From positions 1-55,822 of the forward strand of contig VGWX01000006.1 in NCBI GenBank assembly GCA_016873615.1: a stretch of DNA of 55,822 nt. The letters are read 5' to 3'. The notes under the pieces were generated by a model that was given only the letters and a program-made list of their open reading frames with translations, had not been told where the DNA came from and searched no databases. The DNA is from Nitrospira sp. Its GTDB lineage: Bacteria; Nitrospirota; Thermodesulfovibrionia; Thermodesulfovibrionales; SM23-35. Of the stretch, positions 2,849 to 55,822 are shown one piece after another. The first letter of the stretch is position 1. The number at the start of each line of letters is the position of its first letter. The position numbers were made by a program, and so were the translations under genes.

Positions 2849-5800
2849 ATGAAACGATTTGTCTGTTTAATCTGCTTTGTGTTGTTATTATTAACCTTCT
2901 TCTCTTTAAACAATGCAAATGCTGCGATGACCGACTATTGCGTTGTACCGCCCTATGTTATCCAGGATGTGCCGCCAAATGTCATGATTATCCTTGATAA
3001 TTCGAACAGCATGTATAATCTTGCGTATGCATGCACAACAACAACTGTAACAACTGCAGGGACAAACACTACCGTAATCCCTGTTGACAATGTTACCGGT
3101 TTTAAGGTGAGGCAATGGATTGCCCTTGTACATGGGGCGACGACGTATCCGCTGCAGATAAGCGCTATCAATACGGTCAATAAAACCCTTACGGTAACTT
3201 TACCGGTGGCGAATTTTTCCGTAAACGATACGGTCTCGGACTGGGGTTGTTACGGCGAATGTAGTTCAACTGGTTACCCTCGTTTTTATGATAACTGTTA
3301 TACCTGTGCTTCGGCAACAACGAGTTTTTCCAGTCCCTATCCTAAAACTGTTACCACTATTCCTGTGAATAGCAGTGCTAACTTTTGGGTGGGAGAAATC
3401 ATTACTATTATAGGGAGCGGCGGTCCTTTTGAACGTATAGTTACTGCAAAGCCCACAGGCACGTCAATAACCGTAGACTCTTCGGTGACTTTTGCCAGTA
3501 ACAGTTATACAATCTATGATTACAACTGTTATTATTTAAAACACCCTTACCCTGAACAGAGCTTTGATTCGACCAAAGAGTATTATGGTTATTTCCTTCC
3601 CACATACTGGTACACGTATGACAGCTCGGGCGGCAGATTTGTAACAAGCCGCTTAAAAACAGCCGGGGCAAAGACTTCCACCGAATGGGACGGCAATTTT
3701 ATGAACTGGCTGACCATGAGAAGGGTTGATATTGTGAGAAAGGTGATGACCGGCGGAAAAACAACGACCAGTAACAGGCTCGTGACAACCAGTCCGGAAG
3801 AGAACAGACGGGGATTATACAAAGCCGTATTTAATGCAGAGAACTATATGGGATGCACAGGATGCACCGGAAATATCAATGTCACTTTTCCCACAGCATC
3901 TTCAGACCCTTCTTCTTTTACCGCATATTCAGGTCCGGGGAACCCGAGTTCAGGATGGACGAGCAGGGGGAGTTTTAATTTATATGTTGTAGTACCGACT
4001 GTATTAGTTCCGGTATCAGGAGTACTCCAGGATGTTGTCGGCACCCGGGCAAGGCTGGGGCTCACGTTTTATAAAACAAGTGAAGGCGGTTATGTGCAGG
4101 TGCCTATTGCTGCATCGAATCTGGCAAGCGCCGTAAACCAGATAAACAATACGAACCCGAGCGCCAATACTCCTATAGGAGAAACACTATGGACAGTGGG
4201 CGGATATTTTGCCCAGGAATCCTCTATCCCTCCTGTCGGCACCCCGGGACCGAGGTACGCTTCCGGCGACTATCAGATAAGCAATAATGTTGATCCTTTA
4301 AACTTTGGGACAGGCGGAAGTCCCCGCTGGCCTTCATGTGCAAAAAGCTATGTACTCCTTATTACAGATGGTGAGCCTTGTTCCGACGGAAATCTGCCGG
4401 GCAGTTTTGCAACATATGCCAGTACAAGGACTTCTTTTGACTGTTCCGGCAGCACCTGCCCGAAATACCCGTCTACCTGCACAGACGGCATTGATTGCCT
4501 GTTTAATTCATCAACTCTCCCTTCCTGTGGACCGGGCGGCAATACTTCCGGCTTAGAAGATGTTGCTTTATATCTGCATACAAATGACCTCAGAAATAAC
4601 GGAGGCACGCCGGACATCGGGAAGGATGCCTTAACAGGCATCCAGAATTTAACCCTTTATACTGTCTTTGCCTTTGGGAAGACTTCAACATTTCTCCAGT
4701 ATGCTTCCATAAACGGAGGGTTCGAAGATATCAACGGCAACAACCAGCCTGACCTTCAGTCAGAATGGGACGGCAATAATGACGGAGTGCCTGATAACTA
4801 CTATGAGGCTAATGAAGGTCATGAGCTCGAACAGGCGATCAGGAACGCTCTTTCTTCCATTCTCCGCAGGGCATCCTCCGGTACCGCGGCTTCGGTCCTT
4901 GCATCAGGCGAGGGAAGCGGAGCCAATCTTGTTCAGGCTGTTTTTTATCCGAGGCGGAGGTTCGGCAATGATATCATCAGCTGGACAGGAGAGAGCCAGA
5001 ATTTCTGGTATTATATTGACCCGTTTTTCAAGAACAGCAGCATAAGGGAAGATACGGTTTCCGACAGCGTTCTCAATCTTACCAATGATTATATCGTAAG
5101 CTTCTATTTTGATCAGACCGCTCAGCTGACAAAGGCGAGACGCTTTCAGGATACTGACGGTGACGGAGATGCTGATATTCAGGTAGTGCCGCCTGTTATC
5201 TTTGAAAACGTATCTGCCCTCTGGAAAGCAGGCCAGTCATTATGGAGCAGGGATCTGAGTTCGGACCCGAGAACAATATATACCACCACTAACGGAACCT
5301 CTTTTCTTGCAAACAACTTTTCTGTCGCCAACAGGACAACATTACAGCCGTACCTTGATGTGACTGACGATACACTGGCAGAAGATGTAATCAGGTACAT
5401 ACATGGAGAGGGTCTCACCACTCTGTTGGATGAAGACGGCAATGTGGTAACAGCAGGAATTGACAGAAACGGAGACAGCGTAGACGATTACAGACCACGC
5501 TATGCAAGGATCGGGACAGACACACATGTATGGAAACTGGGAGATGTATTAAATTCAACGCCGAGAATTGCCTCGTGGGTCCAGCTGAATAATTATGACA
5601 GCAGGTACAATGATGAAACATATAAGACTTTTATAAACTCCAGCGGTTATAAAAACAGGGGAATGGTCTTTGCAGGAGGAAACGACGGGATGCTCCATGC
5701 TTTCAAACTCGGGAATCTGGAGCTGAAATGGACAGGTCAGGGGCCATATGAAAGGGCACGACTGACAGGTTCAAACAAGGGCAGGGAGCAATGGGCGTTT

Positions 5801-53186: not shown

Positions 53187-53726
53187 CCTCTTTTTTATCT
53201 TAGGTAACACAAAAAAATAATAATTATTACTGCACCGATGATCAATATTTCCGAATCTTTTTGTTCCTCCAGTTATTTCCTAAATATCAGATATACGTAT
53301 CTGCTAATTATGCTTAATAATCTACAGTATTTTTTCTTTTTATGAAACTGAGAACTTCAAGGAAGCAACAATAAGTCTGATTTTCTTTAAATAAACGCCT
53401 GAATTGTAGAGAACTATTACTTTTCTGTCTTGTTTGTTTTTGTAAATTAATGGTACCCCCTGCAGGAATTGAATCCCGAACGCCTTCGGGATTTAGGAAA
53501 CCGATTTGGCCGGGACCAAGAAGGCTTGAAAATACTTAATTTATTACATAATATCAATAAGTTAACATGCTTTTGCACTACGTTAAGATTTGTCGTATTT
53601 TGCCTTGTTTTGAGCTATTTTTATCACACTTTTATCACACCCCTTTGCACCTCTAAATGATCTTTAAATAAGTGTAAATTTGAGGAGTTGGCGGGGTTCA
53701 AATGCACACGAAGCTGCTCCACCGGA
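53071..53726. other. 656-bp A/T-rich region with tRNA scar, no clear gene
   Basis: Apart from the 39-codon ORF and the tRNA-Arg fragment, this region is A/T-rich and I see no gene with family features. The 63-codon frame at 53469-53660 has no ribosome-binding site and no recognisable motif. Confidence 0.4.
53451..53504 (-). tRNA. tRNA-Arg(CCU)-like 3'-half fragment (not functional)
   Basis: On the minus strand the anticodon loop TTCCTAA (53499-53493; anticodon CCU) follows CGGT, and the end reads TTCAATT (T loop), CCTGC, AGGGGGT, A, CCA. The T-stem 5' strand is mismatched and no 5' half is present. It resembles bacterial tRNA-Arg(CCU) 3' ends, a frequent integration target. The accessory genes lie on the side expected for an integrated element. 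Confidence 0.5.
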
Positions 53727-54419
53727 TTATATATTTCTACCATATATCAGCAAATCTCCAGTTTCAGGATTCTGCGCGATTGTATCTATTCTCTTCCTCC
53801 CTCCGGGATATGGAGAATCGTCCAGTGAATGAACAACGATAGGTCTTAACCCTCTTCCTGCATATTCAAGTGTTTTGAATAAGTAACCCATGAACGAGCC
53901 CGAATAGCGATAGCGTCGTATGCAGTCCTCAATACTCTTTTGAAGCAAATACTCATATCCCTCCCAACGGGAAATTCTGGGATTATATTCGATCCACTCA
54001 TCAATAGTGAACCTTACCAACTTAATAATTTCCTGTCTGGCTGTCACATTTCCTTTCTGAGCAATTCTCACTAACGCAATACTGATAATGTCCCGTATAG
54101 AATCATTATCTTTGTCAGCTGGAGTCAGAAAGCTGTAGAGTTTGTCATCATATTTATGAAGAATAATGTTGACCTCAGTTTCACTTCGATAAAGTTTGGT
54201 TCCGTTATGCCGGGATGTAATCCATTGTCTTTGAAATTTACGATCCAAAGCACGGGTAATTCTGTCCCAATCTATGCCACCGTTTTCTCTTCTTATGTTT
54301 TTCTGAAAAAAACGATATATATGGGGAGCATATCTTTGTATCCAGGAACTATTGAATGCATGAGGTTGTATCTCTGCCAGTAGTTTATTTATAGCTTTAA
54401 CAGCAGAATCAAAATCCAT
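53727..54419 (-). CDS. Hypothetical protein with sigma-70 region 2-like segment
   Basis: The 230-residue product is not a named family I recognise. Residues 125-195 (ARQEIIKLVRFTIDEWIEYN ... YLLQKSIEDCIRRYRYSGSF, MGYLFKTLEYAGRG) resemble region 2 of sigma factors in the spacing of helix, W/Y-rich turn, G-S-F and Y-x2-K-T-L. There is no region 4 HTH. The C-terminus is DSPYPGGRKRIDTIAQNPET. A four-half-site operator lies 45 nt upstream, matching the one before the divergent AbiEi-like gene, so both should be under the same regulator. Confidence 0.5.
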   Translation of the reverse strand: MDFDSAVKAINKLLAEIQPHAFNSSWIQRYAPHIYRFFQKNIRRENGGIDWDRITRALDRKFQRQWITSRHNGTKLYRSETEVNIILHKYDDKLYSFLTPADKDNDSIRDIISIALVRIAQKGNVTARQEIIKLVRFTIDEWIEYNPRISRWEGYEYLLQKSIEDCIRRYRYSGSFMGYLFKTLEYAGRGLRPIVVHSLDDSPYPGGRKRIDTIAQNPETGDLLIYGRNI

Positions 54420-54463: not shown

Positions 54464-54516
54464 TGTTCACTTATTTTATTTGTTCATTTTCATTGAACAT
54501 TAAATATTGCTGAACA
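54464..54516 (-). promoter_or_regulatory. Four-half-site operator, array 1 (before the sigma-like gene)
   Basis: TGTTCA at 54464 and 54481, TGAACA at 54494 and 54511: spacing N11, N7, N11, a symmetric array. On the minus strand the last spacer before the gene (AATAAAATAAG) resembles the matching spacer of array 2 (GTATAAATAAG), so the promoter parts are related as well. Confidence 0.85.
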
Positions 54517-54620
54517 TGCTAACCTACAATATCAATTGTTTTTTTTGAATGGTACAAATATACCTATTAGATTGAAAAATAATTCTTATATATAAGATTG
54601 TTGCTTCAGAACTTGACTTT

Positions 54621-54673
54621 TGTTCATTTTTTTTGTATGTTCATATTAACTGAACAGTATAAATAAGTGAACA
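54621..54673 (+). promoter_or_regulatory. Four-half-site operator, array 2 (before the AbiEi-like gene)
   Basis: TGTTCA at 54621 and 54638, TGAACA at 54651 and 54668, with the identical N11-N7-N11 spacing of array 1. The last half-site touches the ATG at 54674. TTGACT at 54613-54618 and TATGTT 17 bases on could be the promoter, which the operator would cover. Confidence 0.85.
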
Positions 54674-55732
54674 ATGACTATGGACAGAAGAACGAATAGA
54701 GACACACAAGAAGAAATCTTTCGCCTTGCTATCGAGGCTTTCCGAAAGAACATCCAGGCGCAAGCCGAGATTGAGATTTTGGCCGAGGAACCTGCCTTTG
54801 CAATGGGGTTTCGGCCAGACCGTCGAGTAAGGATGATGATACAAGGGAAGGCAATGGTTTACTATGCCGAAATAAAAACAACCATTACGAAACCATACAA
54901 GCTCTTATTGCTGATGCACAAAGAGAAACTCAACTACCCTCTTTTATTGGTCGCAAAATATGTAAATGCACAGATGGCGGAGCAGCTGAGGCTTGATGGC
55001 ATCGAATTTATCGACACAGCCGGCAACGCCTTTATAAACCAGCCGCCAACATATATATTTTTGAAGGGTAACAAACCGACAGAGGATGTCAGAACAGCTC
55101 CGCTCAAAAGAGCATTCAAGCCCGCAGGCCTCAGAATCATTTATGCTTTCTTGTGTAATCCCGGTTTTGAGAATAAGACCTACCGTGAGATAGCTGGAGG
55201 AACAGACGTAGCCCTCGGTACAGTCGGCTGGATCATGAAAGAACTAAAGGACCTTGGCTTTCTTTTGGATATGGGGAAACGAGGGAATAAACTGACAGAA
55301 AGAGAAAATCTGTTTCAAAGATGGGTTACAGCTTATCCGGAAAAATTGAGACCAAAGCTAATTCTCGGTCGATATAGAGGCGAATACGGATGGTGGCAAC
55401 TGAAGAAACTCGACCCGCTGGAAGCACAGTGGGGTGGAGAGGTTGCTGCTGAAAAGTTCACACATTACCTCAAACCCGAGGTCATCACGATATATACAAC
55501 GACTCAGCAACTCAATCAGCTGTTACTCGGGAACAGACTCAGGAAAGATCCTGAAGGAGATGTTGAAATCCTCGAAAGGTTCTGGAAGCCAGTTGGTAAA
55601 TTGGAATATGAAGACCTTGTGCATCCGATCCTTGTTTATGCAGATCTCCTGGCAACCGGGAATCAGAGGAATATTGAAACAGCGAAGATGATCTATGAGC
55701 AACATATCATTCGACTTATCAGGGAAGATTGA
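54674..55732 (+). CDS. AbiEi-type transcriptional regulator/antitoxin (COG4861/AbiEi_2-like)
   Basis: The 352-residue product has residues 1-115 that include MMIQGKAMVYYAEIKTTITK, a D/E...EIK pattern like restriction-endonuclease folds, and EFIDTAGNAFINQPPTYIFL, both typical of the AbiEi_2 antitoxin group. Residues 150-215 form a winged helix (KPAGLRIIYAFLCNPGFENK, then YREIAGGTDVALGTVGWIMK). In type IV AbiE systems this protein represses its own operon and counters a nucleotidyltransferase toxin, which begins 38 nt before its stop. It is the likely ligand of the TGTTCA/TGAACA operators. Confidence 0.75.
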   Translation: MTMDRRTNRDTQEEIFRLAIEAFRKNIQAQAEIEILAEEPAFAMGFRPDRRVRMMIQGKAMVYYAEIKTTITKPYKLLLLMHKEKLNYPLLLVAKYVNAQMAEQLRLDGIEFIDTAGNAFINQPPTYIFLKGNKPTEDVRTAPLKRAFKPAGLRIIYAFLCNPGFENKTYREIAGGTDVALGTVGWIMKELKDLGFLLDMGKRGNKLTERENLFQRWVTAYPEKLRPKLILGRYRGEYGWWQLKKLDPLEAQWGGEVAAEKFTHYLKPEVITIYTTTQQLNQLLLGNRLRKDPEGDVEILERFWKPVGKLEYEDLVHPILVYADLLATGNQRNIETAKMIYEQHIIRLIRED

Positions 55733-55822
55733 TCAACAGACCGTAGAAGCCCTTGCTATGGTAAAGAGGATTGCTGATTCTTTGAGCATTCCGTTTTTTG
55801 TAGTTGGCGCTTCCGCAAGGGA
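55695..55822 (+). CDS. AbiEii-like nucleotidyltransferase (partial, runs off the window)
   Basis: Only the first 42 residues are visible: MSNISFDLSGKIDQQTVEAL followed by IPFFVVGASAR, the start of the nucleotidyltransferase core (VVGAxAR) found in toxins partnered with AbiEi_2 antitoxins. It overlaps the antitoxin gene by 38 nt, as expected for a coupled toxin-antitoxin operon. Confidence 0.65.
   Translation, partial: MSNISFDLSGKIDQQTVEALAMVKRIADSLSIPFFVVGASAR

Follow-up and report, generated by a model that had tools for sequence, protein, structure and literature searches.

Genes at the locus

Near the right end of the analysed Nitrospira sp. DNA (contig VGWX01000006.1; the window, i.e., the whole stretch of 55,822 nucleotides), two divergently oriented genes are separated by two copies of a 53-bp array. 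The right gene (54674..55732, forward strand) encodes a protein of 352 aa that matches the AbiEi_2 family (PF09952) with 143.9 bits against a cut-off of 21 (E 5.4e-42), and the AbiEi-type label that it carried in the original prediction therefore holds. The NCBI annotation name of this family is type IV toxin-antitoxin system AbiEi family antitoxin. Within the end of the antitoxin gene, at 55695, starts an open reading frame for an AbiEii-type nucleotidyltransferase, the predicted toxin partner, whose 5' end (55695..55822, forward strand) is present in the window, the rest lying beyond the contig end. This assignment was made from sequence and from an orthologue: the intact copy in the relative G008 (L021:7244-8110) matches AbiEii (PF08843) with 28.7 bits against a cut-off of 22.5, which bears out the nucleotidyltransferase partner that had been proposed. 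An antitoxin gene overlapping an AbiEii/DUF1814 nucleotidyltransferase gene is the arrangement of a type IV toxin-antitoxin (AbiE-like) operon. In G008, the nucleotidyltransferase gene is followed by an ORF of 360 aa (L021:8218-9300) with a sub-threshold match to Prok-E2_B; the window contig ends before the corresponding position. Furthermore, a second AbiEi_2 paralogue of 363 aa, belonging to another subfamily, is found in G000 (C70; L030) and in G008 (C56; L021:13041-14123). The members of this ~363-aa subfamily are devoid of the array.

The AlphaFold2 model of the window antitoxin (mean pLDDT 90.7, alignment of 45 sequences) predicts a PDDEXK-like N-terminal domain (residues ~1-135), a winged helix (residues ~150-207), which in the model and in a fold search resembles the winged helices of MarR and DtxR, and an AbiEi_2 C-terminal domain (residues 206-345). 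The two-domain fold of classic AbiEi (COG5340) was considered as well, and three domains are predicted instead. The domains were called on the order of secondary structure elements and on weak fold matches to restriction enzymes; the search of the PDB returned no match at E<=0.001 and no full-length match, and AbiEi and Rv2827c were absent from its top 50. A nuclease-like motif (E66-x-K68 together with D49) can be recognised in the N-terminal domain. As these residues are present in only part of the 45 proteins (D49 in 36, E66 in 24, K68 in 34), nuclease activity of this domain is uncertain. The same domain (encoded at 54674-55078 in the window) also contains a near-invariant D-x-A-G-N motif.

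The left gene (53727..54419, reverse strand, divergent from the AbiEi gene) encodes a 230-aa protein of no recognisable family, with homologues in eight other Nitrospirota genomes. It had been described as sigma-like, a label for which no support was found. The protein has no match in Pfam (Sigma70_r2 included), NCBIfam or the PDB and no profile-profile match, and it is not among the five Sigma70_r2 matches of its genome. Seven of its homologues gave no match to sigma-family Pfam models even at E<=10, and a profile comparison with four sigma factors of the genome returned a probability of 0.2%. Its AlphaFold2 model, built from two sequences, reached a pLDDT of only 40.6 and was uninformative. 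No homologues were found in viral contigs. In four Nitrospirota genomes the gene is linked to the AbiEi_2 pair; elsewhere its neighbours are a type I restriction gene, an integrase gene, a gene for an AAA/DUF4143 ATPase or a HigBA-like pair, and because of these neighbours it looks like a mobile, defence-associated gene. Broken extra copies of it in the window's genome (L029:6230-6388, L028:1-111) and in G008 (L021:9255-9356) point to a mobile or duplicated gene as well. Note also that a stretch next to the locus, shared by both genomes (53450-53520 in the window; L021:3343-3594), reads like a 3' tRNA remnant, although ARAGORN called no tRNA at 53450-53520, and that an intact tRNA-Leu gene is located beside the locus in the relative G009 (L022). 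Together, the remnant and this tRNA gene suggest tRNA-targeted integration at the locus.

Two arrays of identical geometry and a predicted promoter

Each 53-bp array consists of two inverted 23-bp repeats, TGTTCA-N11-TGTTCA and TGAACA-N11-TGAACA, with 7 bp between them. The proximal array, a predicted operator (54621..54673, forward strand; half-sites at 54621-54626, 54638-54643, 54651-54656 and 54668-54673), directly abuts the ATG of the AbiEi gene at 54674. The distal array, a predicted auxiliary operator of the same geometry (54464..54516, forward strand; half-sites at 54464-54469, 54481-54486, 54494-54499 and 54511-54516), lies upstream of the left gene, its start 97 bp and its end 45 bp away from the ATG. 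Both are exact, with no mismatch in the 24 fixed bases and with identical 11-7-11 spacing, so that the hexamers and spacing originally predicted were confirmed letter for letter. The distance of 157 bp given for the two arrays is correct from start to start, whereas the gap between them is 104 bp. Chance had been called very unlikely; accordingly, 100 dinucleotide-preserving shuffles of the window contained no array even with up to 3 mismatches allowed, and none is expected by chance. In the whole 2.9-Mb genome these two arrays are the only copies at <=3 mismatches.

The proximal array overlaps a predicted promoter of the sequence TTGACT-N17-TATGTT, whose -35 element (54613..54618, forward strand) lies 2 bp before the array and whose -10 element (54636..54641, forward strand), 17 bp further on, overlaps the second half-site. 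Two inverted 23-bp repeats with 7 bp between them thus lie over the promoter, as judged from the sequence. In the related loci L271, L273, L274 and L276 the -35 element is kept in the same place as TTGACT or TTGACA, and the -10 arrangement is kept likewise; across phyla, the -35 element is much less well kept than among these relatives.

The array is coupled to AbiEi_2 genes across phyla

A scan of 84,980 species genomes revealed at least 118 loci with the exact array, and the matches listed come, by their record titles, from Bacteroidota, Pseudomonadota, Actinomycetota, Nitrospirota, Desulfobacterota, Acidobacteriota and others. Of these 118 listed loci, 79 have the array at the start of an AbiEi_2 gene, and all 45 array-adjacent proteins that were scanned match PF09952. 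At the other 39 listed loci no AbiEi_2 gene was present in the fetched stretch.

The coupling is also seen when the search starts from the protein. A Pfam search of the window's phylum (396 genomes) gave ten strong AbiEi_2 matches (>110 bits, the window's own included). Seven of them have the array at the gene start with 0-2 mismatches of 24, two show an array with 5-6 mismatches there, and one is a truncated ORF without an array; in shuffled control loci the best matches had 6-9 mismatches. The array is present, with 1-4 mismatches, in a more distant AbiEi_2 subfamily of the phylum as well (L279-L282, L290, L297). Twelve plasmid loci were picked by their AbiEi_2 protein, and seven of them have an array with <=4 mismatches at the gene start (<=1 in five of these), whereas shuffles of the plasmid loci never gave fewer than 7 mismatches. 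In two Vibrio plasmid loci, by our reading, other half-sites (TTTACA/TGTAAA and ATTTCA/TGAAAT) are present while the spacing stays in register; two further plasmid loci have a weaker array and one is without an annotated start. Such drift of the letters with the branch of the protein, under constant spacing, is to be expected if the protein itself binds the site.

Conservation of the arrays at AbiEi_2 gene starts across phyla, whether the search begins with the array or with the protein, thus supports the proposal that the AbiEi-like winged-helix protein uses them as its operators. In the open-licence papers searched, no operator description was found for the AbiEi_2 branch; both the 53-bp operator shared across phyla and the solo arrays of phages (see below) appear to be undescribed.

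Putative autorepression of the AbiEi_2 operon

Two characterised systems provide a model for the arrays. In Streptococcus agalactiae AbiE, a gene for a winged-helix antitoxin is likewise followed by that for a DUF1814/AbiEii nucleotidyltransferase, and the promoter is overlapped by two inverted 23-bp repeats to which the antitoxin binds, repressing its own operon (PMC3985639); one AbiEi monomer binds each repeat (PMC3985639, PMC7319586). Rv2827c of the Rv2827c-Rv2826c system of Mycobacterium tuberculosis also represses its own expression, binding upstream of the antitoxin gene to inverted 23-bp repeats arranged in two pairs (PMC7319586). The window protein is a clear member of PF09952 with an AbiEii-type partner, and the differences from both systems are considerable. 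The S. agalactiae antitoxin belongs to COG5340/DUF4095, is much shorter (23 kDa) and has two domains, and its single operator consists of the repeats TGTTGCTTTTA... placed 3 bp apart compared with 7 bp here (PMC3985639). The Rv2827c repeats have another sequence, with 13 bp within the pairs and 4 bp between the pairs, and Rv2827c is a two-domain protein that binds with negative cooperativity (PMC7319586).

The arrays are very probably autorepression operators of a type IV (AbiE-like) toxin-antitoxin operon with an antitoxin of the AbiEi_2 branch (PF09952). This conclusion draws on the sequence and position of the arrays, their conservation across phyla, their coupling to AbiEi_2 genes and the overlap with the predicted promoter; that AbiEi_2 represses its own promoter is inferred from the conservation of the operator. 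For the binding and its stoichiometry, the repression and the auxiliary role of the distal array we propose the following model. One AbiEi_2 monomer would bind each 23-bp repeat via its winged helix, by analogy with AbiEi and Rv2827c, and one array would hold two molecules. Cooperative binding as a tetramer or as two dimers had been suggested for the arrays, which is not the likeliest stoichiometry in view of the single monomer per 23-bp repeat in characterised AbiEi (PMC7319586). Because of the additional PDDEXK-like domain and the lack of a full-length PDB match, this analogy spans a large distance. As the proximal array extends from just after the -35 element to the start codon, its occupancy would block RNA polymerase, so that neither antitoxin nor toxin would be transcribed. 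The distal array would be an auxiliary operator of the same AbiEi promoter, as is probably the case at about one fifth of the AbiEi_2 loci listed; it may also affect the divergent gene, which is probably not its main role.

The arrays might instead be read by a different, widespread regulator, AbiEi_2 operons being merely part of its regulon. Arrays are found without AbiEi_2 in phages and in about one third of the listed genome matches, as would suit such a regulator. However, no other gene family was seen to recur beside the solo arrays outside related phage groups, and the position at the AbiEi_2 start, half-sites that drift along with the branch of AbiEi_2, and a 23-bp unit shared with known AbiEi operators make this explanation highly improbable. 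What the solo arrays do hold against autorepression by AbiEi_2 is that either operators outlive their genes, or they are decoys, or another protein reads them.

What are the two arrays for?

The position of one array before each divergent gene had led to the idea of a three-gene regulon, in which AbiEi_2 would use one array each to repress its own operon and the gene for the 230-aa protein, the latter being a functional third component. Part of it stands: four genomes, with two layouts between them, have the left gene and the AbiEi_2 pair linked, and three of these (the window's, G008 and G009) share the divergent layout with its two arrays. Co-regulation through the two arrays is not supported. 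Among the matches listed, 17 of the 79 AbiEi_2 loci have twin arrays, most loci having a single one, and at 12 of these 17 the divergent ORF is absent. In the fourth genome, G330, the left-gene homologue (51% identical) is located downstream of the pair in convergent orientation and without an array, whereas two arrays 163 bp apart stay before AbiEi. The twin arrays without a divergent ORF and the G330 layout imply that the two arrays are a property of the AbiEi_2 promoter. Furthermore, two of the three genomes show decay of the array next to the left gene (3 mismatches in G008, 1 in G009), while the AbiEi-proximal one is perfect in both, and no clear promoter is visible beside the array next to the left gene. 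Five further left-gene homologues, which have no AbiEi_2 gene beside them, are without an array. On the other side, a truncated second left-gene copy in G008 (L244/L021) retains an array with 1 mismatch upstream of its start, and for this reason the left gene may still be subject to a regulatory effect. On balance, we consider the three-gene regulon unlikely.

A refinement of autorepression would be DNA looping, with AbiEi_2 bridging both arrays and thereby tightening the repression of its own promoter. The recurrence of a second array in a minority of the listed AbiEi_2 loci, the similar distances in the window and in G330, and the two operator pairs of Rv2827c (PMC7319586) are compatible with it. 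However, the twin arrays are spaced by anything between 59 and 187 bp, without following whole helical turns, and most loci have a single array. Looping is therefore a fair guess, though we would sooner bet against it than on it.

Solo arrays in phages

Viral genomes contain the array as well. In IMG/VR, at least 120 viral contigs possess the exact 24-base array (L031-L150, L299-L370), and the 18-base core pattern gave at least 120 matches compared with 2 for the same core reversed. The 120 exact loci listed represent 68 distinct array sequences; 107 of the 120 overlap no long ORF. An AbiEi_2 gene is nearby in one of these loci and absent from the fetched stretch in the other 119. The median distance from array to gene start is 376 bp in the listed viral loci, compared with 8 bp in the bacterial set. 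In 36 whole viral records (<=304 kb), which were selected for having an array, exactly one array each is present at <=3 mismatches, and one of these records has an AbiEi_2 gene. Some of the contigs clearly belong to phages: in L071 the array (4379-4431) is located between the genes for the small and large terminase subunits, with the portal gene after them, and in L043 (9594-9646) it is found beside tRNA, terminase and endolysin genes. In two unrelated phages (L039:2450-2502 and L043:9594-9646) the solo array lies within a dense cluster of tRNA genes or at its margin; a search for known RNA families in the surroundings of the arrays yielded nothing but tRNAs, in eight loci. None of five related records of named phages that were checked has the array.

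Selection seems to keep the arrays in phages without an AbiEi_2 gene, as judged from a comparison within one related phage group, where the half-sites are conserved to 0.96, the spacers to 0.76 and the bases flanking the array hardly at all; the contrast between half-sites and spacers is smaller in other groups. Several functions were considered for these arrays and rejected. Hairpins would require pairing of the spacers: the inner 7-bp spacer pairs above expectation (0.76 vs 0.40 at one position), but its centre is odd and it reads like an extension of the half-sites, and excess pairing is almost absent from the outer spacers. As promoters, the arrays have weaker -35/-10 matches than those at AbiEi_2 genes and are far from gene starts. 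Palindrome-rich "decoy islands" around them are not apparent either, other gaps of the same contigs being at least as palindromic.

The solo arrays could be left over from AbiE operons that phages formerly carried. An AbiEi_2 gene together with its array can sit on a viral contig, as in L108. However, the 119 listed exact arrays that have no such gene belong to a set of many different sequences, the half-sites of the related phage group are conserved above their spacers and far above their flanks, and no AbiEi_2 was found at E 1e-5 in 50,697 annotated phage records, so that we regard this origin as improbable. The simplest idea is a decoy for the host antitoxin: many unrelated phages would each carry one solo array that soaks up host AbiEi_2 as the phage replicates and thereby disturbs or disarms an AbiE-type defence. 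We put this forward tentatively, as a conjecture that may well prove wrong. Alternatively, a phage protein possibly reads the same site, or host AbiEi_2 is possibly used to regulate phage genes. No relevant literature on phage operator decoys against toxin-antitoxin repressors was found among the open-licence papers searched.

Implications

Two operators between divergent genes need not mean that both genes are co-regulated; this natural inference is not supported at the locus studied here. The array represents one exact putative recognition element for a toxin-antitoxin branch that is spread over many phyla, and with it members of the AbiEi_2 branch can be found on the basis of DNA only. As for phages, their solo copies raise the question of whether operators of host repressors serve as decoys against abortive-infection systems. 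If the decoy reading is true, phages would have a counter-defence that consists of operator DNA instead of protein or RNA.
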